Both the position numbers and the translations under genes were made by a program. Of a DNA stretch of 47,080 nucleotides, positions 1-14,899 are shown piece by piece (position 1 is the stretch's first letter; every line of letters starts with the position of its first letter). The notes under the pieces are model-generated. The model did not search any database, was not told the origin of the DNA, and was given only the letters and a program-made list of their open reading frames with translations. Source of the DNA: Synergistaceae bacterium (lineage in GTDB: Bacteria; Synergistota; Synergistia; Synergistales; Aminobacteriaceae); the NCBI GenBank assembly GCA_017444345.1, contig JAFSWW010000055.1:1-47080 (forward strand), written 5' to 3'.

Positions 1-16
1 AGTAATAGCGTGTTTT

Positions 17-59
17 TTCCGCCGCCGACGGGGTGGGCGGGTGGGAGGAGGCGGCGGAA
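17..59. repeat. GC-rich hairpin with G-quadruplex motif in its loop (copy 1)
   Basis: Perfect 10-bp inverted arms (TTCCGCCGCC at 17-26, GGCGGCGGAA at 50-59) enclose four G-runs separated by single bases (30-33, 35-37, 39-41, 43-45). This matches the textbook pattern for a stable parallel G-quadruplex on the plus strand and a C-rich strand on the minus. The right arm directly abuts the ftsK stop codon (60-62). Neither direction has a T-tract right after the hairpin, so it is not a normal intrinsic terminator. The 15-mer GGGCGGGTGGGAGGA at 35-49 recurs exactly at 27490-27504, and a related half-element follows the last gene of the window. Confidence 0.8.
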
Positions 60-2219
60 CTAAAAATTTAGCAGGTCAGGAAATCCTACGTTATTGCTTA
101 AGTACTCTACAAAATCAGAAATTTTCTCGTCTTCTATAAATGGAGCTTGCAATCTTATCGGCAAAGGATAGCCCGAACTCCTGAATAACATATCGCCTTT
201 ACTTGTGAGTCTCTCTGCTCCTGAAGAGTCAATTATATTTTTTGAGTCTTCAAGTGTCTGAAGCGTAAAAGCTGCCCTTGCCGGAATATTTGATTTAATC
301 AGGCTCGTTATTACATCATTTGAAGGAGTCTGAGTCGCTAAAATCATATAAATTCCTGAAGCTCCGGCCTTCTGTGCTAATCTTGCTATTAAACTTTCTG
401 TCTCATTTCCGGCCGAATACATTAAATCAGCTAGTTCGTTTATTATAATCACTATACGGGGCAATTTCTCATTTTTGCGATTGTAGGCTGATAAATTTCT
501 TACTTTAGCGGCTGAAAATTTTTCCGTGCGTTCCTGCATTTCGTGTAAAGCCCAGTTAAGAGCCTTTAAAGCCGTCTTCACGTCATAAACAGGAGTCGCT
601 ATTAAATGTGAAAGATTTTCATAAATCGCAAAATCTGTCTGTCTTGTGTCAATCATTAATAATTTAAGCTCATCGGGACGGCAATTTGCGCACATTCCGA
701 GAATGCAGGAATTAATGAATACACTTTTGCCCGCTCCTGAACTCCCGGCGATTAAAATATGAGGCATTGACTCGAGTCCCTGTATAAAAATTTCTCCGTC
801 GATTTTACAGCCAAGCGGCATAATTAATTTTGCTCGTGAATTAATGAACTCTTCAGAATCTATAATATTTCTCAATGGAATAATTTTACGTTCGAGCGCA
901 GGAACTTCAACTCCAGCATAATGAGTCCCCCATATAGGAGCCTCGATTCTTACCGGCATTACAGCGAGGGACATGGCCAAGTCGTCAGCAAGTTCAAGAA
1001 TGCGGCTCACTTTTGTGCCGGGGGCGAGTTCTAATTGATATTGAGTAACTGAAGCACCGTTTATAATTTTTGCGACACTGGCATTGACTCCGAAATTCTT
1101 TAATGATGAAATTATTTGCTTGCCTTGTCTCTCTGAAGATTTTATTAAATCCTTGTCGAACTCAATAACTTGTTTAGCTCCGTAAATATCAATAGGAGGC
1201 GGAAAATTTGCTATATCTTCATGCTGTGATTGCTGGGAGTCGTTGACTTGTTCGGGCTTGTTTGCTTGTAACTCGTCAATAGCATCAATAGAAGGAAGGG
1301 GGCGGCGAAATTTTTTCATACGTTTAGCGGGCTCTCTTTTCTCAGGAGCTGATATTTTGCTTTCGTCAAGTGAAGTAATAAGAGTGCTGAACATATTAAT
1401 TGCGGCTTTCATGGGATCTTTTTCGGGTTCTGGCTGCTGTGTATCATCCTGCTTTAAATTAGGGTCGGGGATTCGCATTGACTCAATTTCTGCCTTAGCA
1501 TTAAGAGCCGACAATAACGGCATTGGATCAGAAAATTGTATAGCATCGTCATAAACTCTGAATTTAGGGGCGGGAATCTTCTGCGGAAATAAAATATTTT
1601 CGGGCTTGTCTTCTGTATATGGATCTCCGCTATAATTTTCGCGCGGTTTTCGTCTTGATCTGGGTCTAGTTTTAGATTCAGAGTCTAAATCAGAATCAGA
1701 GTCCGAGTCTGAATCTGAATCAGAAAAATTCATAACTGGTATAGAAATTTTCAGAATCCTAGAGCCGAACAGATAAGCCGACAAAATAAATGACGCTATA
1801 ACGAGTAAAAGTGTTATAAACGTTCCTATATTCAAGACAAAAAATTTAGCGAGTCCGCTGCCTAGTCCCCCCGGTTGAAATAGAGTCCAGTCAGAATCCC
1901 AGCCTGTTTCACGCAAAAATCCCAGCATAAACGAGAACGAAATATAAAGCTGAAGAGTGCCTAAAACTTGACGAGGTACACGAGGGACTCGAAATCTAAA
2001 TAATTTAGCGGCACATAAATATATCACGAAAAATAACGGGACAATGAACGCGCCTCCCCATGTTGAACGTAAATATCTGCCCCATTCGCGCCCGCCGTCG
2101 CCTGTAAATGAACTGTCGAATAATGCCAATATACAATAAAAGCAAAATAATATGATTCCAAATAATAATAATTCTCGTAAATCGCCTTTATTCTTGTTAG
2201 TCTTTCTTCTTCGCGGCAA
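60..2219 (-). CDS. ftsK: FtsK/SpoIIIE-type DNA translocase, divergent, no gamma domain
   Basis: This is a membrane-anchored ATPase of the FtsK family, which pumps chromosomal DNA through the division septum. Three to four hydrophobic segments lie within residues 17-155, followed by a low-complexity linker (a Ser-Asp run at about 166-180, then a charged stretch to about 340) and the motor domain (345-700). Walker A is AGSSGAGKS at 491-499. Walker B reads IIINELADL, with Asn594 in place of the usual Asp; Glu595 is kept. The protein stops just after the motor core at residue 719, so the C-terminal winged-helix gamma domain that reads KOPS and contacts XerD is absent. The usual DPK after the second strand is also altered (IDTRQTD). 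The start is TTG with a strong AGGAGG upstream. It is the last gene of the pilus/nuclease operon. It may be a specialised translocase rather than the cell's main FtsK, but this is inference. Confidence 0.85.
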   Translation of the reverse strand: MPRRRKTNKNKGDLRELLLFGIILFCFYCILALFDSSFTGDGGREWGRYLRSTWGGAFIVPLFFVIYLCAAKLFRFRVPRVPRQVLGTLQLYISFSFMLGFLRETGWDSDWTLFQPGGLGSGLAKFFVLNIGTFITLLLVIASFILSAYLFGSRILKISIPVMNFSDSDSDSDSDSDLDSESKTRPRSRRKPRENYSGDPYTEDKPENILFPQKIPAPKFRVYDDAIQFSDPMPLLSALNAKAEIESMRIPDPNLKQDDTQQPEPEKDPMKAAINMFSTLITSLDESKISAPEKREPAKRMKKFRRPLPSIDAIDELQANKPEQVNDSQQSQHEDIANFPPPIDIYGAKQVIEFDKDLIKSSERQGKQIISSLKNFGVNASVAKIINGASVTQYQLELAPGTKVSRILELADDLAMSLAVMPVRIEAPIWGTHYAGVEVPALERKIIPLRNIIDSEEFINSRAKLIMPLGCKIDGEIFIQGLESMPHILIAGSSGAGKSVFINSCILGMCANCRPDELKLLMIDTRQTDFAIYENLSHLIATPVYDVKTALKALNWALHEMQERTEKFSAAKVRNLSAYNRKNEKLPRIVIIINELADLMYSAGNETESLIARLAQKAGASGIYMILATQTPSNDVITSLIKSNIPARAAFTLQTLEDSKNIIDSSGAERLTSKGDMLFRSSGYPLPIRLQAPFIEDEKISDFVEYLSNNVGFPDLLNF
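1675..1721. repeat. GANTC hexamer array inside ftsK
   Basis: GANTC sites begin at 1675, 1681, 1693, 1699, 1705, 1711 and 1717, an exact 6-nt period with one unit (1687) mutated. On the coding strand this gives the alternating Ser-Asp run of the FtsK linker. Synonymous codons vary between units, so it is an old or selected array rather than a fresh slippage product. Confidence 0.85.
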
Positions 2220-2244
2220 AAAATTCCCCTCCTGATTTAATTAA

Positions 2245-3360
2245 TTATTTTTCCGAGCGTACCAGCCTGATATTTTGCTGATGTTCACGGAAAGATTTAG
2301 AAAAATAGTGATAGCCGTTCTTATTCGCTACATAATAATAATAATCGTTTACTTCAGGTTCGAGGGCTGCTCCCCATGCTGCTGTGCCGGGTATACAAAT
2401 GGGCTTAGGGGGTAATCCTGAAATCTTATAAGTATTATACGGCGAGTCAATCTCTAAATCTTTATTCAATACGCGCGTTAGTTTACGGCCAGCGAGTCTC
2501 CATGCATACACAACTGTAGCGTCAATTTGCAGGGCCATATTTGATTTTATTCTGTTATTAATTACTCCGGCAACTGTAGGACATTCTGAGTCATGCAAGA
2601 CTTCACGCTCAATCATTGAGGCAATTATAGCAGCGTCAACTAAATGGCTTGAATCTAATTTTTTTGCTTTGATTAAATCGCCGCGTAATTTCCACCATGC
2701 AAGTGATGCCGCCTGAACAGCTTCGTCGGGTGTTCGTTCGACTAATAAATAAGTCTCAGGCTCAAGAAATGCTATTCTCGTGTATTCGTCATCGGTGATA
2801 GATTTTATTAAGTCCTGCATTTCGTCCGGATAATTTGAGTCGTTAAGTAATGCCCGTGTGAAAGCTGCTATATTAAATCTGCTGTCTTGAGTCTCTAAAT
2901 TTTCAGCAAGCGCAAAAATATCAAGTCCCGGCAAAATTTGTAATTTCAGTAGTGCTGGCTTGGCCGTCTTTAACTGTCTTGCTAAGTTCCACGGATCTGA
3001 AGGCACAACGGAATAATTACCGGCTCTAATTTTCTTGTCAATGCCGAATTTTGCGAGCCAACGCGCTAATTGTGAAGGTGAACCGCTTTCAAGTGCTCCC
3101 TGAATCTCAAAAGCACGTGCTGCCTGTAAAGCTGTCATGCCGCTTGAAATAGTAACACTTATTGTATTGCCATCAGGAATAGGCAGTAAACCGTCCCAGA
3201 ATTTCAGCGGAGTCTTTGTGTAATATGAGAAAGCCATTCCCGCAATTGCTGCCCATGATAACATAAAGAATATAATAAATATCCCGTATAATTTAGGCTT
3301 TCTCCGGGTTAATTTGTGAGGTCTGACTCGTTCACGTGAATTATTATATTTTGTCTGCAA
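2245..3360 (-). CDS. mltG: Endolytic murein transglycosylase MltG (YceG family)
   Basis: MltG cleaves nascent glycan strands at the inner membrane and so sets peptidoglycan chain length. The protein has a basic N-terminus, one membrane anchor at about 24-46, a LysM-like region, and the YceG catalytic domain. The conserved block IASMIEREV carries the presumed catalytic Glu251, followed by AGVINNR and the SPYNTY...GLPPKPI...G region typical of the family. The length of 371 aa is normal. The start is TTG with AGGATG upstream; no ATG fits better. It lies 64 nt downstream of the pseudopilin and 25 nt upstream of ftsK, so the operon arrangement is likely. A local wall-cutting enzyme would suit a machine crossing the peptidoglycan, but MltG is also a housekeeping protein. 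Confidence 0.92.
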   Translation of the reverse strand: MQTKYNNSRERVRPHKLTRRKPKLYGIFIIFFMLSWAAIAGMAFSYYTKTPLKFWDGLLPIPDGNTISVTISSGMTALQAARAFEIQGALESGSPSQLARWLAKFGIDKKIRAGNYSVVPSDPWNLARQLKTAKPALLKLQILPGLDIFALAENLETQDSRFNIAAFTRALLNDSNYPDEMQDLIKSITDDEYTRIAFLEPETYLLVERTPDEAVQAASLAWWKLRGDLIKAKKLDSSHLVDAAIIASMIEREVLHDSECPTVAGVINNRIKSNMALQIDATVVYAWRLAGRKLTRVLNKDLEIDSPYNTYKISGLPPKPICIPGTAAWGAALEPEVNDYYYYVANKNGYHYFSKSFREHQQNIRLVRSEK

Positions 3361-3424
3361 GTTCTTAGCACATCCTGTTATTATTTTGCGTTTATTATAG
3401 CAATTAACATAAAAATTTTATTCT

Positions 3425-3877
3425 TTATTCGTCATCGTCATTATTAGCAGGATCAGCGGAAATTCTTGCACGGCCTCTTGTACTGAAGATTATATAATAC
3501 TTGCTTTCGTCTGTGCCTGTTATTGTGATAGTTCCCGATGGTCTGTAAATATTAGAGAGTGTATATACAAATTTTTTATTAGGTGAATATTTGCAGCCTG
3601 AAGTAGCATTTAAACTTTCATCAGGATTTATATCATATGACTCATTATTCCATTGCATTGTGATATTATCATCATTAAATTCAAAAGAAAACGCTTGATG
3701 AGTCCTATTTGCCGTCTGAGTTAATTTATTAATCCATTCTAGGACTCTTGCTGCCTCGCGTTCGGCCGTCTGATTTGCCATTTTAGTATTAATGAGAAAT
3801 ACTGCTATACCCGTTAAGATTGCACAAGCTGTGATTAATTCTGTTAGAGTGAAAGCAAGCCGCTTATTATTTTGCAT
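3425..3877 (-). CDS. Type II/IV pseudopilin
   Basis: A short protein (150 aa) with a type IV prepilin N-terminus: a basic leader, then the segment AFTLTELITACAIL with Thr-Leu-Thr-Glu around the cleavage site, and a hydrophobic helix to about residue 30. The residue before the mature Phe is Ala rather than the usual Gly, which may slow prepilin peptidase; Glu at mature position 5 is present. The rest is a polar globular region resembling GspH/FimT-type minor pseudopilins only in general shape. The start overlaps the end of the PilM-PilN gene by 11 nt and has a GGAG ribosome-binding site, indicating coupled translation. No prepilin peptidase, assembly ATPase (PilB) or platform protein (PilC) is in the window, so these would have to be elsewhere. 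Confidence 0.75.
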   Translation of the reverse strand: MQNNKRLAFTLTELITACAILTGIAVFLINTKMANQTAEREAARVLEWINKLTQTANRTHQAFSFEFNDDNITMQWNNESYDINPDESLNATSGCKYSPNKKFVYTLSNIYRPSGTITITGTDESKYYIIFSTRGRARISADPANNDDDE

Positions 3878-5249
3878 TATAGAAATCTCCTTTTATGTTA
3901 AGAATAAGGCTGAAATTTACGAGATTCTTGACTTGAGAAGTCCCGGGAATTACTACACTCTCAAATAGTCCGCTTTGTTTGAGTCCCTCGCTCAAAGATT
4001 CCAAAGACTCAGCATCTGAAGCCGTACCGGTTATATTTACGACAAATCCCGTGCCTCCTGCTGTAAAATCTGCATTATTTAATTTGATTCCCGTGCCTGC
4101 ATTTGCCTCGATTGAGTTTAAGACTTCTAAAATGGGAATATCACCGCGCAAAAAATTTAATACCTGCTCAGTTTGTGATTTATTTTGAGAGAGTGAAGTA
4201 TTATTTTTCATGAGTTCCATTCTATGTTCTTGAAGCTCGCTGATAAGTTCGCGGTTATGATCTATAGCACGTGTTAAAATTCTAGCTCGTGAGTTTGCAA
4301 ATAAAATAGTTCCCAGTGATAGAATCCCGAATCCCGACATCAATAAAATTAACGCGATTCTATTTGGATTCATTGAGTTTTTGCGTTTCTCGAATGCTAT
4401 ATATTCGGCCGGGCGCAAGTCCATTATATATTCGTCATCGGGGTCTCTCATTGCTAGTCCGCGTGCTTTGTAGAACTGGCTGGAAAAATTTACGATTTCT
4501 ATATCAGTCCCGGAAGTTATATTTACGTTTACGTCTGCAAGAATTAATTTACTGAGTTTGACGCGCTTATATTGAGTCTCAACAAATTGCAGAGTGTTGC
4601 GAATGTCCCCGAAACTATTAGAATTATCTGCAGTCCTGAAAAAAATCCCGTGCCCTTCCCAAGTCGTTACTATATTGTGTCGATCTGCAAAAATACAAAG
4701 TCCCTCGCGGTCTTCAGGAATTGCGCGTAACATGGCAAAATTTGCGGGCTCTATTGCTTTAACAATAATTCCTAATTTGTTGGCGATTTCTATTAATTGA
4801 TCTATATAATTTCTTCTGACAGCTGCAGCAAGAACGCTAACAGTATCGACAGTTCTATTTGATGTAGGAGTCTCTATTATAATCGTGTCAAAAATTGCTT
4901 CAGAACTCGGAAATGGGAAACTCTCTTCAAGATTTAGTGCTAACGAGCTTTTTATGTCATCTAGGCTCATTGTCGGGAAGTTCAGGGGCCTTATTATTAC
5001 ATCGCCTGAAGGAATGCCTATAACTACTGGGACGGAAATTTTGCCGGTTTCTTTTATTAGCTGCTTAAATCCGCGCTCTAACATTTTAAAATTTTTCATT
5101 GAGTTATTACTCATGCAGCCTTCTTCTAAGGGAATTCTAATATGTCTAATATCTTCGCCGTTCTCGTCAATTTCTATATAACCGAGTCCGTCATTTCTTA
5201 TAGCAATTCCCGCATTTATACTTGATTTAACAGGATGAAATAGCCGCAT
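3867..5249 (-). CDS. PilM-PilN fusion, pilus inner-membrane assembly protein
   Basis: The N-terminal part (about residues 10-285) is an actin-like PilM domain. Recognisable blocks include a GIPSGDVIIRPL strand, a LEESFPF block corresponding to the E-IPF motif, and a VLAAAVRRNYIDQ helix. A single membrane helix follows (298-318), then a coiled coil and a PilN-like periplasmic domain to the end. PilM and PilN are normally separate proteins that dock through a PilN N-terminal peptide; here they are one chain. I chose the ATG at 5249 because it overlaps the upstream stop as TAATG; a GTG at 5264 would add five residues but has poor ribosome-binding spacing. Its place between two pilin-like genes supports a role in a pilus or pseudopilus. 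Confidence 0.8.
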   Translation of the reverse strand: MRLFHPVKSSINAGIAIRNDGLGYIEIDENGEDIRHIRIPLEEGCMSNNSMKNFKMLERGFKQLIKETGKISVPVVIGIPSGDVIIRPLNFPTMSLDDIKSSLALNLEESFPFPSSEAIFDTIIIETPTSNRTVDTVSVLAAAVRRNYIDQLIEIANKLGIIVKAIEPANFAMLRAIPEDREGLCIFADRHNIVTTWEGHGIFFRTADNSNSFGDIRNTLQFVETQYKRVKLSKLILADVNVNITSGTDIEIVNFSSQFYKARGLAMRDPDDEYIMDLRPAEYIAFEKRKNSMNPNRIALILLMSGFGILSLGTILFANSRARILTRAIDHNRELISELQEHRMELMKNNTSLSQNKSQTEQVLNFLRGDIPILEVLNSIEANAGTGIKLNNADFTAGGTGFVVNITGTASDAESLESLSEGLKQSGLFESVVIPGTSQVKNLVNFSLILNIKGDFYNAK

Positions 5250-6622
5250 TATTCTCTGAACCACACTTCCTGATGGAAAATTGTAGTCTTGTCTACATCA
5301 TTGCTTACAACTTCCTCAATCATTAAACAATTATTATTATTATCAATTGGAGCATAAGCCCTGATTAAAAATTTTCCGGGCATGGCTGGGAATAGCTGTT
5401 CATACGGTTTTTGCAAGATATATTTTCCTTCATCTTTCAAAGACGTATCATATAATTTATAATCCAGATTATGTATATTCACTGTCATTTTGCCGTCTGA
5501 TGCAGATTTTGATAATATTCTTGTCCCCTCATCAGAATAAAATGACTTAGCTTTATTTGTTATTTCGTAATAATAGACATCGTTTAAATTATTAATTTGA
5601 GTTATGGATTTTTTTGCTTGTGAAATTAAATTCTCAAGGGCGAGTCTAACTCCCATGATTTCGCGGTCTTCAGTGAGGGACTCAAATGACTGCACGGAGA
5701 AAAAGAAAACTTGAGTCATTATTAATGCTGCTGTCAGAAAGAAAACTAACAGACTCACAAGTGAAGCCCCGCGCCGACTCCTAAAATTTATCGCTCTGTC
5801 TTTATCGCATGAATATTTATATTTGCATTTAGCACACAATTTTTTATCGCCTCTGATTTCAGGAAATTTTTTAGATTTTAGCGAAATAACTTGCCAGACT
5901 GTATTAAATAAATCCGGCAAATTTGATTTTATCATAGCAGCAACGCTCACAGAGTCAAAAATATCGGGCGATTTCTCATCAAGATAAATTATCTCAATTG
6001 AGGGCGTTATACCTGTCTTCTTAGCAATCAGCCAAGCATAAACGAGACTTTGAGCAAGCGGCACAGTTATATCACTCTTGTTATATGCTTTGAACTCGAA
6101 TAATCGGACTTCACCTTTATCGGGATTAAATAATAGTGCGTCATAGCGTCCCTTAATCGACAAATAGCCGTATTCAAGAGTATAAATGCCTTGTAAATCC
6201 TGCTCAGGTTTAATAAAAATTTTATCGTGTGAATTAATCCCGCTGAAAAATTCAGACATTGCTTTAACCCATATTTTTATGCCTGAAGCGACCGCTAATA
6301 ATTGATTCGCCGTAAATTTTTCTGAGTTCATAGCGGCAAACGGCAAGAAAATTTTTTCACGAATCAAATTCTCAAGTTTTCCATTTTCCGGACTGCTTTT
6401 AACTGCGTCAATAATCTCATCGTGTAAAGGACTCATATCATTATAAGCTGCCTCAAAAAATACCTGCGCTATATTCTTGTGAAAAATTGAGCCGTAATAC
6501 TCACTTCCGTTAATTCCGACAGTCCACGCTGATTTTTGCCTCCTGTGCAATTTATAAGCGAGCAGGGCCGGACATCTTTGACACAAAGCAATATCGCTAA
6601 CTGTAATATAACAAGTCTTCAT
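5249..6622 (-). CDS. Cas4/RecB-type nuclease fused in frame to a pilin-like segment
   Basis: Residues 1-275 form a PD-(D/E)XK nuclease of the Cas4/RecB type. His48, Asp161, Glu176-X-Lys178 and a QSLVY motif (191-195) make up an intact active site. Cys17 (or Cys14) with Cys263, Cys266 and Cys272 fits the 1+3 cysteine 4Fe-4S cluster of Cas4 and AddB. Without a stop, the chain continues into RSRRGASLVSLLVFF, a prepilin-like leader and membrane helix (about 281-306), and a polar C-terminal domain of about 150 residues. A stop in another frame lies at the junction, so an ancestral pair of genes may have been joined by a small indel, or the junction may be an assembly error. The gene starts 13 nt after the ATPase gene and ends in TAATG with pilM. 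No CRISPR array is nearby. Confidence 0.8.
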   Translation of the reverse strand: MKTCYITVSDIALCQRCPALLAYKLHRRQKSAWTVGINGSEYYGSIFHKNIAQVFFEAAYNDMSPLHDEIIDAVKSSPENGKLENLIREKIFLPFAAMNSEKFTANQLLAVASGIKIWVKAMSEFFSGINSHDKIFIKPEQDLQGIYTLEYGYLSIKGRYDALLFNPDKGEVRLFEFKAYNKSDITVPLAQSLVYAWLIAKKTGITPSIEIIYLDEKSPDIFDSVSVAAMIKSNLPDLFNTVWQVISLKSKKFPEIRGDKKLCAKCKYKYSCDKDRAINFRSRRGASLVSLLVFFLTAALIMTQVFFFSVQSFESLTEDREIMGVRLALENLISQAKKSITQINNLNDVYYYEITNKAKSFYSDEGTRILSKSASDGKMTVNIHNLDYKLYDTSLKDEGKYILQKPYEQLFPAMPGKFLIRAYAPIDNNNNCLMIEEVVSNDVDKTTIFHQEVWFRE

Positions 6623-6635
6623 TATATAAATATAC

Positions 6636-8675
6636 TTACTTTCTATCAGCCATAGTGATTAAAATATCGTCTCTTGAGTTAAACAGCCTGAATTTATTAT
6701 TACTCTGCAAAAAATTCATGAATTCGGGGCGTGAAATTACATGATCCCGGGCTGCTAAGAATTCAAGTGATTTATTTATGCTGATTAATTTCATGGGCGA
6801 CGCGTTTACTATTTCTATCAGGACACTCTCAAAACTTGCCGGGACTTGTGATTCTGTTTTCTCCGGAGTCTGAGTCTGACTCTGACTCTTAGGCAAATTA
6901 ATATTTAATAGATTCAAGCTCCTGACAAAAATTTTTATATCGTCTCTAGTTGCTGCCCTTGCGCCTGTTGACGGGTAAATATTTACATCGCCGTTATCGA
7001 CCCGGTTGATTAAAGCTGCCAGCCCGTACCATTCAACACGAGTAAATTTATTAATTAATAAAACTTTCCCGCCCGCGTCTTGAAATTCCTGTAAAAGTTT
7101 AGCTACCTGCTTCCAAGTCGATTTATGTAATTGAGCTTCAGAAATATAATAGCAAATATACTCGTTTAAAAAATTTATTCCCTGCTTAAGTGCGTTGGAG
7201 TGTGAAAGATTATTATTGCCGGTTACTATAAAGAAAGCAAATTTTTTATTGTTGAATTCAGCGAAAACCTTTAAATGTTTGCTTGACCCGCGCGAGACCT
7301 TGAAATTTTCATGTGAAGACAGCCAGACTCTAAGAGATAACGCTAATAAATCAGCATTTGGAGGCCAAGATTTTACATCACGTTTTATTTTATTGCATTC
7401 GTCATTGAATACGCCTTTAAGAGTCATAAAAATTTCTTTCTCGTATTTATTATTGCCGGGTAAATCTAATAAAATTTGCGTATCTTGCTGTGATTCTTGC
7501 GTTTGTGATTGAGTTTGAGTCTGATTCTGAGTCTGAGTTTGAGTCGAGTCTTGATTTGGTGCTTCGTCCCTAAAAATTGCCCGGTTAGCAAGTTCTATTA
7601 CCATGCGGGGCGAGAATCCATTTTTTAATTTTACGCGATCGATTAAAAACTGGTAAAATTTTTCTTGAGTCTCGCTGTCTTTATCACAGAAGGCAAATGC
7701 TATTCTCTCTCTTATTAATTGCTGTGCTTGACTAATTGAACATTCTCCCATTGTGATTTTATGATGTTCGAGTCTCTGATACACTGACGAATTTAAACAC
7801 GGTTTTATTTTCACGTTCCATATATCAGGCTTCATGAAACACAGCGGCAAAATTCCTACTAGATTATCACTCAATAAATGAATGATATTACCAAATGCAA
7901 AAATTAATTCCTGATTCCCATTCATTGAGTCTAACTGGTCAAAGCATACAATCATAGGCACATGAGCATAAGCAAGCAATAATCCCAGTGAAATTAAAAT
8001 TTTTTCGGCGGCACTCTCTTTTTTTGCGTCAGTCATTGAGTTAATATCACGTGAAGGCAGGCCAAGTTTTAAAGAGTCCTCCTCGTCGAGTCCTTCTCTG
8101 AGCCAGTCAATAATTAAAGCGCGCATATTTTCATCAGTTGTCCCGGCATATAGCAAAATACATTTAAGCACGTTTTTATCGAGTCCCGGCATATCACGAG
8201 CTAAATAAATTCGCATGTCAATCTTGTCAATACTCGCAAAACCGTCATTGATTCTGCGTTCCCTGTATGAGCTTAGTACTTCATTTACAAGCATATCAAA
8301 TTGAGATTTATTCGAGCTGTGAATTTGCAGTAAACTTATAAAAATTTCTGATAATAAATCCTGTGTTACGCTTTCAGGATCGCGGAATGCCCTGACAGTT
8401 ACGAAAATTGCAGGCCTTGAATTAGTCCTGAGTCTGCGCAAGATTCTTGTCAGCATGTGAGTCTTCCCTGAGCCTGATTCACCTAGTATTAACCCGGCAA
8501 GAGGCATAGAAGGCTCCCGGCGTTTATGTCTGATTAATTGCTCAATTTCTTCAGACGCTGATCTATTTAATTGCTGTAAATCAGGATTCATATTCTCCCA
8601 CGGCACCGGCGACGCTGAAGACTCAAATGGGTTATTTTCTCGGAGCTGCTTAAGAATCAAATCATTATCTGACAT
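6636..8675 (-). CDS. P-loop ATPase of unknown function with Q/T-rich linkers
   Basis: The N-terminal half is an AAA+/STAND-like ATPase: Walker A GESGSGKT (65-72), Walker B MIVCFDQLD (241-249), and a helical lid with an arginine-rich segment ending near residue 368. A low-complexity linker rich in Gln-Thr (372-400) leads to a second domain (about 405-590), which has a Phe-Ala-Glu-Phe strand and an FTRVEWYGLAALI block. A shorter Gln/Ser/Thr linker leads to a final small helical domain. The architecture recalls large ATPases in phage-defence and DNA-segregation loci, but I cannot assign it to a named family. It overlaps the winged-helix gene by 11 nt and precedes the nuclease gene by 13 nt, so the three products probably work together. 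Confidence 0.7.
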   Translation of the reverse strand: MSDNDLILKQLRENNPFESSASPVPWENMNPDLQQLNRSASEEIEQLIRHKRREPSMPLAGLILGESGSGKTHMLTRILRRLRTNSRPAIFVTVRAFRDPESVTQDLLSEIFISLLQIHSSNKSQFDMLVNEVLSSYRERRINDGFASIDKIDMRIYLARDMPGLDKNVLKCILLYAGTTDENMRALIIDWLREGLDEEDSLKLGLPSRDINSMTDAKKESAAEKILISLGLLLAYAHVPMIVCFDQLDSMNGNQELIFAFGNIIHLLSDNLVGILPLCFMKPDIWNVKIKPCLNSSVYQRLEHHKITMGECSISQAQQLIRERIAFAFCDKDSETQEKFYQFLIDRVKLKNGFSPRMVIELANRAIFRDEAPNQDSTQTQTQNQTQTQSQTQESQQDTQILLDLPGNNKYEKEIFMTLKGVFNDECNKIKRDVKSWPPNADLLALSLRVWLSSHENFKVSRGSSKHLKVFAEFNNKKFAFFIVTGNNNLSHSNALKQGINFLNEYICYYISEAQLHKSTWKQVAKLLQEFQDAGGKVLLINKFTRVEWYGLAALINRVDNGDVNIYPSTGARAATRDDIKIFVRSLNLLNINLPKSQSQTQTPEKTESQVPASFESVLIEIVNASPMKLISINKSLEFLAARDHVISRPEFMNFLQSNNKFRLFNSRDDILITMADRK
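6866..6888. repeat. GANTC hexamer array, second linker of the ATPase gene
   Basis: GASTC sites start at 6866, 6872, 6878 and 6884, exactly 6 nt apart. On the coding strand they encode Ser-Gln-Ser-Gln-Thr-Gln-Thr. Confidence 0.8.
7517..7550. repeat. GANTC hexamer array, first linker of the ATPase gene
   Basis: Sites at 7517, 7523, 7529 and 7541 keep a 6-nt phase (7535 is GAGTT), with one extra site at 7546. The coding strand gives the Thr-Gln run of the inter-domain linker. The same DNA hexamer gives Ser-Asp in FtsK because it is read in another frame. Confidence 0.8.
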
Positions 8676-9408
8676 TTCTTGTAACAGTCCCCATTCTGTA
8701 ATTATTCTCGTCCATAAAGCAATCTTTTATCTCATCCGGAGTCATCGTTGACTCGTCTGCAATGTGCATTTGTATTAATTCCCTGTCGCGTAACATAGTC
8801 AACATTGAGTCAAATAAATCGCGGGGCCAGTTTAATTTTTTGCGTAAATCACAAATTCTCACAAAGATTCGGCCGTTATCGAGTTCGTCAAATGCTTTCA
8901 TGAATTCTTCCCGGCTGTAATCGCTCGGGTGTGTATTAGTTCGTTCAGGTTCGTGGATATGTTCAAATTTTTGAGTCTGTATCTTCCCCGAATTATCAAT
9001 CAAATAAAATTTAGTATCTAAATTTTCATCCAGTCTGCTTTTAACTCGGCCTGACTCGACTAAACTATTTAATATTTTAGCGACATCAGCTTTTGAGAAC
9101 GGCAGAGAACGGGCTATTAATTTCGCACTCTTACCCTTAACGCTGTCCATTTCGGCAATTACTAAATCTTCAGGCTGACAGGGTACGAGAATATAAGTTA
9201 TCGGGCCTTTCTTGTGAAAAATAAATTTGTCCTTCACTTGAGGCTCTATTACTTTGCGGATGGCTGAAGCTGTGTGACAGTCTTCAATACCGATTAGCCG
9301 CCTGATTTCTGCTCCCATTGTTATAGACAGCTTACTGACCGTCATAAATGGGCGTTTGTTATCGTCTAATATTTCTTGAATAATTCCTGAAACGCTTTGA
9401 TTATTCAT
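8665..9408 (-). CDS. Multi-winged-helix protein, partner of the ATPase
   Basis: A 247-aa cytoplasmic protein that looks like three successive helix-turn-helix/winged-helix units: about 1-85, about 88-138 (with AKLIARSLPFSKADVAKIL), and about 165-247 (with FVRICDLRKKLNWPRDLFD and a closing DENNYRMGTVTRNVR). No catalytic motif is seen. The last unit resembles DNA-binding modules found beside P-loop ATPases, but I cannot name the family. It is the first gene of the seven-gene operon and overlaps the ATPase start, so a DNA-recognition or adaptor role for that ATPase is a reasonable inference. The ribosome-binding site is GGGAG about 12 nt upstream of ATG. No convincing promoter is visible in the short gap before it, so transcription might come through hicB. 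Confidence 0.6.
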   Translation of the reverse strand: MNNQSVSGIIQEILDDNKRPFMTVSKLSITMGAEIRRLIGIEDCHTASAIRKVIEPQVKDKFIFHKKGPITYILVPCQPEDLVIAEMDSVKGKSAKLIARSLPFSKADVAKILNSLVESGRVKSRLDENLDTKFYLIDNSGKIQTQKFEHIHEPERTNTHPSDYSREEFMKAFDELDNGRIFVRICDLRKKLNWPRDLFDSMLTMLRDRELIQMHIADESTMTPDEIKDCFMDENNYRMGTVTRNVR

Positions 9409-9443
9409 TTATGAAAATTTCTCCCTTCTGTATAATTAATTTC

Positions 9444-9607
9444 TCAAATCAGCCGGATTATTCCTATGTCAGATAAAATTTGAAGCAGAAGTCCTGAACT
9501 TATTTTTTTCCTGCGTGACTCCATTTTTGTCTGACTTTGTGAAATCCCTGCGATTCTGCAAGTTTTATATTTTCACGGGCTGTCAATGACGGTAATTTAG
9601 GACTCAT
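9444..9607 (-). pseudogene. hicA: Decayed hicA toxin gene
   Basis: The start ATG overlaps the hicB stop as TAATG, the usual coupled arrangement. The first 33 codons read as a HicA N-terminus (KLPSLTAREN, then a block with QGFHKVRQKWSH) and end at TAA. The frame that follows encodes a HicA-like C-terminus (GLLLQILSDIGI) ending at TGA (44-46 of the 9400s). The middle of the domain, about 20-25 residues including the core strand, is missing. One internal deletion plus a frameshift explains the pattern. The N-terminal part keeps the SH of the catalytic His region but cannot fold as a toxin. Confidence 0.75.
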
Positions 9608-9810
9608 TACATAGCAATTTTTTGAAGTCCTATAAACTCAATATCATCATTATAATCATAAAGTTGTATAGCTTCCTTCATGTTTGAGTCAAGTTCTTCA
9701 AGAGTCCTCGCCTGAGTATGACACCCGGGCAATGATGGAATGCTCCCGATATAATAGCCGTCTTTATCTCTTGTGATTGTCATAAAATATTCGATTCCAG
9801 TTTTCGGCAT
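9607..9810 (-). CDS. hicB: HicB-family antitoxin
   Basis: A short protein (67 aa) with the HicB N-terminal fold signature: YFMTITRDKDGYYIGSIPSL followed by PGCHTQARTLEELDSNMKEAIQLY. HicB neutralises the HicA mRNA interferase and often represses its own promoter. Small one-domain HicB proteins of this length are common, though the C-terminal DNA-binding domain of longer forms is absent. Its partner hicA, starting on the last base of this gene's stop, is broken, so the antitoxin is an orphan remnant or has been kept for another reason. A weak purine-rich ribosome-binding site (AAAGAG) lies about 8 nt upstream. Confidence 0.85.
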   Translation of the reverse strand: MPKTGIEYFMTITRDKDGYYIGSIPSLPGCHTQARTLEELDSNMKEAIQLYDYNDDIEFIGLQKIAM

Positions 9811-10041
9811 TAAATCACTCTTTCACGAAAAAATTTTTTGATAATTATTTATAGAAATTTTATAGCATATACACGAAAAAATGACGAGATTTTTTGCGGA
9901 CTTTGTGAATTTGTAAACATATTAGTATACTTTTACAAATAATATCTTGCTGTGATGGTATACTCGCTTGAGTTTCTGCCATGTACACGGCGGATATTTT
10001 TTTATGGGCAATTTCTTTAATGCGGCCGTGAATATTATACA

Positions 10042-10094
10042 AAAATTTTTATTGCACGTCATAAATAAACACGTAAAGATTCACAAAAATTTTT
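10042..10094. repeat. Direct repeat upstream of rsmH, copy 1
   Basis: An approximately 52-bp unit with core ATTGCACGTCATAAATAAAC followed by ACGTAAAGATTCAC, flanked on both sides by A-run/T-run blocks. The second copy starts 89 bp further on and differs at about five positions. The unit contains short palindromic pieces but no obvious open frame. Confidence 0.75.
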
Positions 10095-10130
10095 AACTGG
10101 CTTGCGAATAATTAATAACGGGAATGCTCG

Positions 10131-10182
10131 AAAATTTTTATTGCACATCATAAATAAACGCGCAAAGATTCACGAAAAATTT
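10131..10182. repeat. Direct repeat upstream of rsmH, copy 2
   Basis: Same unit as copy 1, with core ATTGCACATCATAAATAAAC then GCGCAAAGATTCAC. It ends about 110 bp before the candidate rsmH promoter. It may be a regulator-binding repeat or a duplicated segment. Confidence 0.75.
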
Positions 10183-10294
10183 TCACGATAATTTTTTGCA
10201 ACATAAGAAAATTTTTTAGCTCTATGAGTTATTGCTATTACTTGAATTAAATCACATTCTTGTAGCTGTAAATGTAGCTGTAAAACTTGCACTC

Positions 10295-10323
10295 TTTCAC
10301 AAAAATTTTGCTGCTTATATAAT
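10295..10323 (+). promoter_or_regulatory. Candidate promoter of the rsmH-mraY cluster
   Basis: TTTCAC (10295-10300), a 17-bp spacer and a perfect TATAAT (10318-10323). Transcription would start near 10330, leaving a leader of about 16 nt that contains just the AAGGAG ribosome-binding site of rsmH. Confidence 0.55.
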
Positions 10324-10345
10324 ATCAAAAAAGGAGAAATTTTTT

Positions 10346-11233
10346 ATGTATCATGAGCCAGTAATGTTAAATGAAGTTATAGAATTAATACGCACTCACT
10401 CAAATAATAAATCAAACTTGCGAATCCTTGACGGGACACTTGGACTCGGCGGTTATTCTGAGGCACTGTTAAAAAATTTTAGTAATCCTTATATTCTCGG
10501 AATTGACAGGGACGAGTCAGCTATAAATTTTTCACGCGAGAGACTCAAGGATTTTAACAATTTCGAGGCACTTCACGCAAATTTCGGGGATCTTGACTCA
10601 ATAATAAAAAATTTTGATCCGTTCGATGTATTTGTCTTTGATTTAGGAGTGTCGAACATGCAAATTTCTTCACCTGAACGCGGCTTCTCGTTCAACATTG
10701 ACGGCCCTCTTGATATGCGAATGAATCCGGACGGCGACTCATTGACTGCACGGGAGATTTTGCGGGACTACGACTCTAAGACTCTTGCAAAAATTTTCTG
10801 GGACTACGGAGAAGAGAGATTTTCACGTCAAATAGCTTCAGCCATAAAACGCACTAAATCGCCGATTAATACTACATTTGAACTCGTGAATCTGATTCGC
10901 TCGACATTGCCGCAGCCCATTCAACGAAAAATGGGAACTCATCCCGCACGCAGAATCTTTCAGGCTCTGAGAATTTACATAAATAACGAGTCCGGAGAAC
11001 TTGAAAACTTGCTGAAATCTTTACGCAAAATAAATAATGACGCAATTATAATATTTGTCTCGTATCATTCACTTGAAGACAGGTTAATCAAGAAAAATTT
11101 TAGACAATGGCAAATTGATAATCACGGGAAGATTTTGACTCGGCATCCTTTGACACCTTCAGAAAATGAGATCGAATTAAATTATAAATCCCGCAGTGCA
11201 AAATTAAGGGCATTTTGTATTATTTCAAACTAG
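10346..11233 (+). CDS. rsmH: 16S rRNA (cytosine(1402)-N(4))-methyltransferase RsmH
   Basis: RsmH (MraW) methylates N4 of C1402 in 16S rRNA and is usually the first or second gene of the division/cell-wall cluster. The SAM-binding block LDGTLGLGGYSEALL, the family signature DLGVSNMQIS...PERGFSF with LDMRM, and the C-terminal FVSYHSLEDRLIKKNF and KSRSAKLRAF blocks are all present. An upstream ATG would add 38 residues, but the protein should start at MYHEPVML, which has AAGGAG eight bases before it and matches the family's N-terminus. This gives 295 aa, a normal length. The next gene begins 67 nt downstream. Confidence 0.95.
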   Translation: MYHEPVMLNEVIELIRTHSNNKSNLRILDGTLGLGGYSEALLKNFSNPYILGIDRDESAINFSRERLKDFNNFEALHANFGDLDSIIKNFDPFDVFVFDLGVSNMQISSPERGFSFNIDGPLDMRMNPDGDSLTAREILRDYDSKTLAKIFWDYGEERFSRQIASAIKRTKSPINTTFELVNLIRSTLPQPIQRKMGTHPARRIFQALRIYINNESGELENLLKSLRKINNDAIIIFVSYHSLEDRLIKKNFRQWQIDNHGKILTRHPLTPSENEIELNYKSRSAKLRAFCIISN

Positions 11234-11300
11234 GCAATTTACGCAAAATGTGTTATTATCTTTCACACGATTAACAAATTTATAAATAATTCGGGGGCGA

Positions 11301-11690
11301 ATGACAATGCGTAAAAGTAAACAAGGTAATAATAGAGTCAAAGTTACAGTAAGATTCGTGCTAGCATTGAGTCTCGTAGCTGGGTTAGTTGTAGGGCTTG
11401 GCATATTGAGATTTCACGCCGCTCGTCTTGCATATTATCTTGAGTCAATTAATCAATCAATACAGAAATATTCAGATGAGGAAGTTGTTTTGCGTCAAGA
11501 ACTCTCTGCACTAGTTGCGCCCATTAGGGTTTATTCGTACTGCAAAGAGAATCTGGGAATGCAAAAAGTTTTGAGGGCTGAGACTATTTCTGTGAGGTCA
11601 AGGAACGGAGAATTAACAGCGTCTCGCGATAATAAATCAGCAAATAAAGGCGGCTGGCGTTCGACACTTGCTTGGCTGCTGGGACAATAA
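11301..11690 (+). CDS. ftsL: FtsL-like septum protein
   Basis: A small bitopic membrane protein (129 aa): a basic N-terminus, one membrane helix (about residues 16-38), a periplasmic coiled coil of about 40 residues (including the SINQSIQKYSDEEVVLRQEL segment), and a basic tail. Sequence alone is weak, as always for FtsL. The position between rsmH and the transpeptidase gene ftsI is the classic place for ftsL, whose product joins FtsB and FtsQ to activate septal peptidoglycan synthesis. Two in-frame ATG codons (11301 and 11307) share one GGGGG ribosome-binding site; the second has the better spacing. Confidence 0.8.
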   Translation: MTMRKSKQGNNRVKVTVRFVLALSLVAGLVVGLGILRFHAARLAYYLESINQSIQKYSDEEVVLRQELSALVAPIRVYSYCKENLGMQKVLRAETISVRSRNGELTASRDNKSANKGGWRSTLAWLLGQ

Positions 11691-11700
11691 ACTATAAAAT

Positions 11701-13386
11701 ATGCCGTCAAAATCACGTCTTAACAGGGCTGGAAATCCCTGGATATTATTTATTCTTGCGTTCATTATTACCGGAGGAACTTTAACGGCTCGACATTGCT
11801 GGCCAAATCCCCGAATCGTTCAGCAATCACAGCATCAATATTGGAAACGAGTCCCCCTTGATGCAGCACGCGGAATAATTCAAGACTCAAAAGGTAACGC
11901 ATTAGTCATTTCTGAAACTCTGCCGTCATTTGCTATAGATCCGTCAATTATTGATATTTCGAACGATATTCCCGAACTCGCTCAAGTTTTATCGCCCGAT
12001 ATTCTTAATCGAGTCCGTAATGCAATGGGTACACGCTCGCGATTCATGTGGCTTAATCACAAAATTTCTGAATCACAGGCCGAAATCTTTCAAGAGTTAA
12101 TGCCAAAAATTAGAGCACTTATTCAAATCGATGAGCCGTATAGAAAATATACAAATCAGCGTTTAATGTCGCATATTTTAGGATTCTGCAACGTCGACAA
12201 CAGGGGACTCGCAGGAATCGAACAGGCATGGGACACGACTCTATACACTCCGCCCGGTCAAAAAATTGTAGTTCGCCGTCCGGGAAGTCAGCCCGCTTCA
12301 CTCTTAGAAGAAGAATCAGAACATAGAACAGTAACTCCGATTGTAACTCTTACAGTTGACAGCAGAATTCAATATGTCGTCGAGAAACATTTATTTAAGG
12401 CGGCAGAAGACAACGGGGCAAAATGGGCGGCCGCAATTTGTATGAATCCTAACACCGGCGAAATTTTATCAATGGCAAGCTGGCCTACTTATGACGCTTC
12501 TAATAGGAAGACTCTTTTAACGACTGAGTCATTATCAAACGGGGCTGTCAGTCGAGGCTATGAACCGGGATCTACTTTTAAGCCGATATATTTAAGTATT
12601 GCACTTGAACGGGGCTGGGCTCAGAAAGACGAAATATTTTTTTGCCCGGCAAGATTAAAAGTTGCTGACGGTTACATAAAAGAGTCTTATCCTGTAGCAA
12701 TGGGCAATATCGACACGGCTCAATTATTAATAAAATCTTCAAACGTGGGCATGGCTCAAATCGGAATCAGAGCAGAACGCACTAAAATGTATGAATGTCT
12801 TCAGGCACTCGGATTCGGTCAAGAGCCCGATATAGAATTACCCGGAGTCGCTCGCGGAATTTTGCCTTATCCTGAAAACTGGCGCGGAGTTACTCCCGCA
12901 AATATTGCGATCGGTCAGGGCTTGGCCGTTACTCCTTTGCAATTAATTACTGCGATGGCTCCAATCGTGAACGGCGGGAAGTTAATGAGTCCTTATATAG
13001 TTAAGGAAGCAATGAATTCACGCGGCGAAATAGTTTACAAGGGCGAACCTAAAGTAATGCGCGAGGTTATTACTCCTGAGACAGCCGAATGGATAAGAGG
13101 GGCAATGCGCAGAGTCGTTCTTGAAGGCACAGGCAGAAGAGCAGCTACTGATATTACGGAATTAGCAGGCAAAACAGGAACGGCACAAGTTCCGGAAAAA
13201 GGCAAATATTCGGCGACTCGTTATGTTGCTTCGTTTATAGGATTCTGGCCGTATGAAGACCCTAAATATTTAATGCTTGTAGTAATAGGCGAACCCACGA
13301 GCGGGAGAATTTACGGCGGTGAACTCGCTGCACCGTCATTTAAGGCAATTGTTGAAGAAATGGCAGAACTCGAATATTATTCATAA
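11701..13386 (+). CDS. ftsI: Penicillin-binding protein, FtsI/PBP2-3 class transpeptidase
   Basis: A class B penicillin-binding protein of 561 aa that cross-links septal peptidoglycan. It has one N-terminal membrane helix (about 13-31), a dimerisation domain, and a transpeptidase domain with the three hallmark motifs: STFK (291-294), SSN (346-348) and KTGT (481-484). The cluster position after ftsL points to FtsI rather than the elongation enzyme. The gene follows ftsL after 10 nt. A clear ribosome-binding site is lacking before the ATG, so translation is probably coupled to ftsL. There is no C-terminal PASTA domain, unlike the sporulation-type paralogue. Confidence 0.93.
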   Translation: MPSKSRLNRAGNPWILFILAFIITGGTLTARHCWPNPRIVQQSQHQYWKRVPLDAARGIIQDSKGNALVISETLPSFAIDPSIIDISNDIPELAQVLSPDILNRVRNAMGTRSRFMWLNHKISESQAEIFQELMPKIRALIQIDEPYRKYTNQRLMSHILGFCNVDNRGLAGIEQAWDTTLYTPPGQKIVVRRPGSQPASLLEEESEHRTVTPIVTLTVDSRIQYVVEKHLFKAAEDNGAKWAAAICMNPNTGEILSMASWPTYDASNRKTLLTTESLSNGAVSRGYEPGSTFKPIYLSIALERGWAQKDEIFFCPARLKVADGYIKESYPVAMGNIDTAQLLIKSSNVGMAQIGIRAERTKMYECLQALGFGQEPDIELPGVARGILPYPENWRGVTPANIAIGQGLAVTPLQLITAMAPIVNGGKLMSPYIVKEAMNSRGEIVYKGEPKVMREVITPETAEWIRGAMRRVVLEGTGRRAATDITELAGKTGTAQVPEKGKYSATRYVASFIGFWPYEDPKYLMLVVIGEPTSGRIYGGELAAPSFKAIVEEMAELEYYS

Positions 13387-13420
13387 ATAATAAATAAAGC
13401 ATGAAAGCAGGTTATAAAAT

Positions 13421-14899
13421 TTGAGCGCAAAATTTGATAATGTCCTGAGACTAATACGGGCAAATGACAAAAATAATTCTGTTCGCATTATTAATCAGGA
13501 CAATTTTAATCCCGAAATTTTTGACGTAATATCAGACAGCAGAGACGTTAAAGCAGGGACTTTATTTGCTGCAATCAAAGGCGATACTTCAGACGGACAT
13601 GACTATATTAATAACGCTGAGTCAAAAGGTGCGTGCGCTGTTTTGTGTGAACGCGAAGTAGATTCTAAATTGCCGCAAATTATCGTACCCAGAGTCCGCG
13701 ATTTTCTCGGTGAAGTAGCTTCACTTGTCTATGATCACCCTTCAAGTAAATTATTAATGGTCGGAGTTACAGGCACAAACGGCAAAACTACAACGACATA
13801 TATAATAAGAAGTATTTTACAGGCCGCAGGAATTAAAACGGGCTTACTCGGAACGATTATAGAGAGCGACGGCAATATCGAGAAAGATGCAGACAGGACG
13901 ACTCCTGAAAGCTGCATAATTCAGAGACAATTATTTAACATGGTAAATAATAAATGCGGTGCTTGCGTAATGGAGACTTCATCACACGGGCTGTATTTAG
14001 GGCGCATTAAGGGAGCTTTATACGACGTAGCAATCTTCACAAATTTATATCCTGAACACTTAGATTTTCATTTGAACATGGATAATTATTTCGCGGCGAA
14101 AAAATTATTATTTACTGATTATACAAAGCCGAATTTTACAGGAGCGGCAAATTTTGATGATTTATACGGGAAGAGATTATTAGCTGAATTTTACGGGAAG
14201 ATTCGCGGGTTCGGACTGAGTGAAGACGCTGACTCAAGAGTTGTTGTCTCACATGGCGCTATTAACGGCACTGATTTAGCTGTTAACTGCAATAAATACG
14301 GCCCTATCAGGCTTCATTCTCCATTAGTCGGCGATTTTAATATTATGAACACCCTTTGTGCTGTAACTGCAATGCGCGGACGAATTGATGACTCCGCAAT
14401 TATTGACGGAGTCGCAAATGTTCCGCAGATTCCCGGCCGTCTTGAAAGAATTGATTTACAAAACGGTGCTTGCTGCTTTGTAGATTTCGCTCATACTCCT
14501 TCAGCTTTAAAAAGTGTCTTGAGCGTAATTCGTAAATTATCAGGCAAAGACGCTAAAATTATTTCTATATTTGGACACGGGGGCGGACGTTACGAGAAAA
14601 ACCGGCCGGAACTAGCAAGGGCAGCTTCAGAATTTGCGGACGAAATTATTATCACGTCAGACAATGCACGCGACGAAGACCCGCAGTTAATAGCAAACTC
14701 AATCGCAGAGGGCGCAACTATACCATATAAAATTATTCTTGACCGAGCCGAAGCCGTAAAATTTGCGCTTGATAACTCAAAGAAGGGCGATATACTCGTA
14801 ATAACGGGTAAGGGGCCGGAAAAATTTTTGTTAATCAAGGATAAGAAAATTCCCTATAATGACACACAAGAAATCATAAAATGGAGGGACTCACACTAA
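13421..14899 (+). CDS. murE: UDP-MurNAc-tripeptide ligase MurE
   Basis: MurE adds the third amino acid to UDP-MurNAc-L-Ala-D-Glu in the cytoplasm. The three Mur ligase domains are present: an N-terminal UDP-binding part with SDSRDVKAGT, the P-loop GVTGTNGKTTTT, and the central METSSHGLYLGR and TNLYPEHLDFH motifs. The C-terminal domain has the specificity loop DNAR where meso-diaminopimelate enzymes have DNPR. The Arg that contacts the diaminopimelate carboxylate is kept, so meso-diaminopimelate is the likely substrate, but the Pro-to-Ala change leaves some doubt. The start is TTG with a short AGG upstream; the next in-frame ATG would remove conserved sequence. It is 1 nt from murF. Confidence 0.93.
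   Translation: MSAKFDNVLRLIRANDKNNSVRIINQDNFNPEIFDVISDSRDVKAGTLFAAIKGDTSDGHDYINNAESKGACAVLCEREVDSKLPQIIVPRVRDFLGEVASLVYDHPSSKLLMVGVTGTNGKTTTTYIIRSILQAAGIKTGLLGTIIESDGNIEKDADRTTPESCIIQRQLFNMVNNKCGACVMETSSHGLYLGRIKGALYDVAIFTNLYPEHLDFHLNMDNYFAAKKLLFTDYTKPNFTGAANFDDLYGKRLLAEFYGKIRGFGLSEDADSRVVVSHGAINGTDLAVNCNKYGPIRLHSPLVGDFNIMNTLCAVTAMRGRIDDSAIIDGVANVPQIPGRLERIDLQNGACCFVDFAHTPSALKSVLSVIRKLSGKDAKIISIFGHGGGRYEKNRPELARAASEFADEIIITSDNARDEDPQLIANSIAEGATIPYKIILDRAEAVKFALDNSKKGDILVITGKGPEKFLLIKDKKIPYNDTQEIIKWRDSH

Follow-up and report, generated by a model that had tools for sequence, protein, structure and literature searches.

Does a single bacterial gene make both a nuclease and a pilus subunit, and if so, how are the two products parted? 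The question is raised by an open reading frame in a Synergistaceae contig (JAFSWW010000055.1), whose stretch of 47,080 nucleotides is here called the window. The original prediction had placed a nuclease with four cluster cysteines and a prepilin-like segment in one frame, and this is borne out by the ORF list and the translation, as the frame starts with ATG and runs without internal stops (Table 1). In many members of the host genus, a group of uncultured gut-type bacteria, the nuclease and what is probably a pilus-tip protein share a single polypeptide. We favour, with moderate confidence, the reading that this one gene gives a two-protein precursor, in which the nuclease serves as a giant prepilin ‘leader’ of 285 aa that is freed by prepilin peptidase.

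A nuclease and a pilin in one frame

Table 1. Position of the fused frame, its parts and its neighbours in the window.
Feature	Residues	Position	Strand	Remarks
Whole fused ORF	457 aa + stop	5249..6622	(-)	
Cas4-like PD-(D/E)XK nuclease domain	1-275	5798..6622	(-)	profile matches, conserved residues
Linker and leader motif	273-285	5768..5806	(-)	ends in RRG; no ATG/GTG/TTG codon
Hydrophobic segment (ASLVSLLVFF...) after predicted cleavage site	286-306	5705..5767	(-)	no Glu5
Minor-pilin domain	286-457	5252..5767	(-)	GspK-like by fold
AAA ATPase		6636..8675	(-)	directly upstream of fused ORF
Protein with weak winged-helix matches		8665..9408	(-)	upstream of ATPase
PilM-PilN protein in one frame		3867..5264	(-)	directly downstream
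Second minor pilin, ComGD/ComGE-like		3425..3877	(-)	below curated cut-offs

The nuclease half matches PDDEXK_1 (PF12705) above the Pfam cut-off (38.3 bits, cut-off 22), and its cluster cysteines (C17, C263, C266 and C272) as well as the core residues H48, D161, E176, K178, Q191 and Y195 show no variation in any of the 43 rows of the alignment. AddB and Dna2 are Fe-S PD-(D/E)XK nucleases, and with these and Cas4 the protein shares the core and the pattern of one N-terminal and three C-terminal cysteines. The term ‘Cas4-like’ can nevertheless be kept for the resemblance only and not for membership, since the curated cut-offs of both TIGR00372 (26.7 bits, cut-off 65) and PF01930 (21.4 bits, cut-off 22.7) were missed, and we discarded a true Cas4 identity; the neighbours here, in distinction from Cas4, are an ATPase, a winged-helix-like gene and pilus genes. 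An anti-phage system was considered and rejected as well, PADLOC giving Cas4 models on the nuclease and, on its neighbours, matches that include weak Avs2, mads_8 and BrxC. A PDB sequence search with the fusion found no match, and the predicted structure of the whole fusion, built from two rows only, has a mean pLDDT of 31. A search of genome contigs for related loci led to a single locus, and the own genome (G000) holds no second copy of either half (1 match from 7 candidates).

The leader motif FRSRRG (residues 280-285) is followed by ASLVSLLVFFLTAALIMTQVFFF, with a predicted prepilin cleavage after G285 (RRG/A, window 5768-5770). For the pilin part a model from two rows, with a mean pLDDT of 61, gave a helix (5-62) and five strands. 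VIA-align placed XcpX (Z 8.9), the XcpK filament (8.4) and GspK (7.9) on top of the list, followed by PilA of S. sanguinis (6.9) and XcpX (6.6) before a drop to 5.0, the top five all being pilins. Foldseek with this model returned nothing at E <= 0.001 (best E 0.32), no pilin family of Pfam matched any of 19 pilins, and the NCBIfam GspK model matched weakly in 2 of the 19 members (best E 1.9e-4), the pilin of the window not being one of them. A leader ending in Gly or Ala, about 21 hydrophobic residues thereafter and the lack of Glu5 are shared with type IV prepilins and the minor pseudopilin GspK, whereas the matched XcpX/GspK chains have 259-295 aa and the pilin of the window 172 aa. Tip-capping pilin subunits lack Glu5 according to the accessible part of PMC10191384; the modelled fold suggests that the pilin resembles tip-capping GspK, and such a role fits the absence of Glu5. 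Orthologous pilins are also found free-standing, with leaders of 6-13 aa and without a preceding nuclease, namely in L048 (leader MRRRPG), L049 (MRRKKA) and L050 (13 residues, ending in RRG), and all three adjoin PilM/PilN-type genes in the ORFs read.

The ORFs at 1-14000 of the window were read by eye and seven of them were analysed with Pfam. The nuclease lies behind AAA and winged-helix-like genes both in the window and in L036, L039, L040, L041, L043 and L046, and in L038 the AAA gene is there and the contig ends beyond it; a PDB sequence search with the AAA protein gave no match. Together with the nuclease these genes likely form a cassette that would act in DNA processing. On the other side, PilM and PilN (window 3867-5264, minus strand) are one protein, in a layout which we take to be that of GspL, and they look like two genes in L048 of a sister genus. 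A prepilin peptidase (PilD, A24) with both Pfam domains is encoded on contig 30 of G000. A search of 37 genus genomes detected such a peptidase in 35; the 22 fused genomes in this set had it in 21 cases, all except G016 (89% complete), and G039-G042, also fused, lay outside this search. The families of the PilB-type ATPase and the platform protein are present in 9 of 9 genomes tested.

Predicted cleavage site, start codons and the likely fate of the chain

The search for relatives covered 100 genomes (G000-G099), 43 of them from the genus (G000-G042), and gave matches in 47, after which the junctions of all genus loci were read one by one. Among the 43, the frame is open through the cleavage site in 26 (L001-L020 and L022-L027) and split in 10 (L021, L028-L030, L032-L035, L039 and L040); one is fused with a frameshifted nuclease and six are without the nuclease (no match in G001, G035, G037 and G038; G019 and G025 carry only the pilin). 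G023 has a further, partial copy (L037) that is cut before the junction and was left out of the count, and five fused rows (L002, L014, L015, L023 and L026) meet a contig end before or at the stop. In the frameshifted case, G033 (L036), the nuclease frame is broken at L036:5250-5400, the junction downstream is still fused and no start lies near the site.

The predicted cleavage site is conserved across the fused rows with Arg at -3 and Phe at +9 in 26 of 26 each, and at positions -6 to -10 the commonest residue reaches at most 10 of 26. The leader ends in Gly (24) or Ala (2) in all 26 fused rows and in one of the two in all 10 split rows, each time followed by a hydrophobic stretch like the 20-25 residues of type IV prepilins, and Glu5 is absent in all 36, under a search motif that itself demanded G/A at -1 and N/S/G/I at +5, that no row failed and whose register is held by F+9 in 36 of 36. 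Gly at -1 is called ‘absolutely critical’ for cleavage in the available text of PMC4471445, and Ala is allowed in that of PMC10191384; the two rows with Ala, L015 and L019, are natural candidates for slow processing. Counted from the start of the ORF, the leader would be the whole 285-residue enzyme, which sets it apart from type IV prepilins and lies outside the ranges of 6-26 (PMC4471445) and 6-51 residues (PMC6916266) that the accessible parts of these reviews give. The linkers vary from 12 to 28 residues, all in frame, and in 9 of the 26 fused rows (L001, L002, L003, L006, L007, L010, L015, L018 and L024), among them the window and the two relatives closest to it, there is no ATG, GTG or TTG between the fourth cysteine and the site; eight of these nine have Gly and one has Ala at -1.

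We infer cleavage, release, partners, functional coupling and a ratchet from this arrangement. Translation would first produce the Fe-S nuclease in the cytosol, to be followed by a short basic linker and the type III (prepilin) signal. The hydrophobic segment would be inserted N-in/C-out, with PilD cutting after G285 at the cytoplasmic face. The nuclease set free in this way would have the upstream-encoded AAA and winged-helix proteins as its partners, and the mature GspK-like tip minor pilin would enter a filament to whose assembly the PilM-PilN protein, encoded downstream, contributes. The fusion itself may have arisen from two overlapping operon genes through one-base indels, and the loss of the pilin's own start would then have made the frame obligatory in the manner of a ratchet, which would be tolerated because PilD would separate the products anyway. 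Cutting by PilD would also account for the retention of Gly/Ala and Arg where there is no internal start, for the continued selection on both halves and for the interchange between fused and split states.

The pilin might instead be translated from a start of its own, the fusion being an incidental read-through from the overlapping upstream gene. This has a modest chance of being right, as the linker contains an in-frame start of some kind in 17 of the 26 fused rows, three of them with a 5-nt Shine-Dalgarno match, and L016, L017 and L019 carry GTG or ATG at leader position 6 with GGAGG or AGGAG; the nine start-free rows speak against it, however, and a linker start preceded by 5 nt of Shine-Dalgarno match occurs in no fused row outside the mosaic clade described below. 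The split genes have a match of at least 5 nt in 6 of 10 cases. In the window, a TTG further upstream at codon 262, behind a weak GAGG, could give a leader of 24 aa, and this codon is the main loophole in the preferred reading.

The original prediction had left open whether the nuclease is tethered at the membrane or released by prepilin peptidase. Release is the better supported of the two, and the retention of the cleavage site weighs against permanent tethering. A nuclease that stays uncut, or is cut only on a signal, would be held near the pilus base and the DNA-entry site (ComEC) and would act there on incoming DNA. Along with internal initiation, this is one of the two serious competitors of release. 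We regard this as unlikely, even though the topology would place the nuclease on the cytosolic side, the ComEC family is found in 8 of 9 genomes tested and Ala instead of Gly at -1 in two fused species might slow the cutting: besides the conserved site, the nuclease is a separate gene in ten relatives, and in sister genera it goes with an FtsK-like domain and with no pilus part. An extension of the preferred reading, release by PilD, would make this protease not only mature a polyprotein but also act as a release switch, so that a membrane-held nuclease ‘leader’ at the pilus and DNA-entry site is freed one-for-one with each tip pilin and pilus start-up is coupled to cytosolic DNA processing, an idea that we put forward as a speculation with little probability at present.

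Selection, spread and history of the fusion

Both the nuclease and the pilin are under purifying selection. In pairwise comparisons (NG86) the window and L002 gave dN/dS values of 0.07 for the nuclease and 0.28 for the pilin, and the window and L003 values of 0.14 and 0.26. Among six other pairs the pilin dN exceeds the nuclease dN in five, the exception being L004/L014 (0.018 against 0.021, on 46 pilin codons), and in L015/L018 the pilin dS is saturated. Faster evolution of the pilin in most pairs, and a fused pilin cut short in L025, could be taken for decay, with the pilin as a pseudogene-like tail on a working nuclease, but a pilin dN/dS of about 0.26-0.28 in the window's clade, motifs that are kept over the fused, split and free forms and an intact copy beside the broken one in L025 make this very improbable.

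A sequencing or assembly error that joined two genes can practically be dismissed, for although fused and split forms differ by one base in three near-relative pairs, the open junction is shared by 26 of 43 genomes whose identity to the window ranges over 46-84%, every linker being in frame, and it can be neither chance nor an assembly error. One of these cases comes from an independent assembly, CAJOEQ010000303.1 (‘uncultured Synergistales bacterium isolate Red_deer_3_mag_11’), which is 84% identical and fused too. Orthologues that are all two separate genes, or an indel error in the reads, had been named as the outcome that would speak against the fusion, and the 26 open and 10 split loci show otherwise; the supposed one-base joining of two genes fails as an error and survives as an evolutionary event. 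A phylum-wide search over 185 genomes and 62 genera found the nuclease in 51 genomes of 10 genera, all from one family, and among the loci read outside the genus there was no fusion to a pilin.

For the history of the fusion we reconstructed a nuclease tree with 43 rows, of which the genus contributes 36, leaving out L036 (frameshift), L037 (cut before the junction) and L031 and L051, which take the same places as L002 and L029. The fused and split states require at least six changes on this tree, and the starred branches force five for the fused label. One unstarred group (81/93) holds 21 fused rows and one split row, the split L039 standing on a long branch, and a mosaic group (88/97) holds four fused and five split rows. 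The AU test against a single clade of all fused rows gave p 1.5e-26, and p 0.018 without the four rows of the mosaic clade; both values are descriptive only, as the test was run after the tree was seen. Within the mosaic group, the fused and split members of the pairs L019/L028, L016/L028 and L017/L030 align with one gap only, of one base and placed at the junction, if the end of the region is disregarded, and more or larger gaps are seen in L017/L034, L026/L033, L016/L029 and L008/L039. In three of the four mosaic fusions the pilin start survives at leader position 6, behind GGAGG or AGGAG, and such start-retaining fusions may be the younger ones, a direction that the tree does not prove.

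The fused frame of L025 ends after some 25 residues of the pilin, and a decayed repeat comes next, followed by an intact free pilin with AGAGGAG and ATG, so that judging from its sequence a fused gene has apparently been re-freed by duplication. At L025:2340-3140 it is a TGA that breaks the fused pilin, and two tandem repeats follow, each after a AGAGGAGATAATCT-like ribosome site, the last being the intact free pilin.

Comparison with known fusions

The modular pilins described in PMC8179133 are alike in that a pilin is fused to a domain foreign to pilus biology, but in the accessible part of this survey the filament displays a module that lies C-terminal to the pilin, whereas the nuclease here comes before the signal and would remain cytosolic. 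As the survey, in the same part, required an N-terminal IPR012902, an order with the nuclease before the pilin would have been missed. A search by title and abstract, mostly of journals outside subscription, returned no description of a nuclease-pilin fusion or of such a long prepilin leader. Pilins of this kind will be overlooked by annotation in which the prepilin motif is sought at the N-terminus alone. If the cut does occur, release by prepilin peptidase extends beyond short leaders to whole folded enzymes, and a single bacterial frame is the source of two unrelated proteins, of which one goes to the cytosol and the other to a filament. The fused, split, start-retaining and apparently re-freed forms that coexist in the genus thus offer a natural series for two operon genes joining and parting again.

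In sister genera a second fusion is found that involves this nuclease family and, where this was read, again lies behind the AAA gene; its C-terminal partner is an FtsK/SpoIIIE-like translocase instead of the pilin. In L038 and L042-L045 the nuclease frame runs 343-406 codons past the fourth cysteine, the extension consisting of FtsK_alpha and FtsK_SpoIIIE in L038 and L043, the two that were scanned, and all five genomes (G043, G052, G053, G054 and G057) have FtsK matches in the frame of the nuclease. Being fused to a pilin in one case and to an FtsK-like domain in the other, the nuclease is a fusion-prone part of the putative DNA-processing cassette. The same five genomes also carry a separate strong FtsK beside the one fused to the nuclease, and in the window the only FtsK match of the genome (60-2219, minus strand) lies inside the same gene cluster as the fusion.
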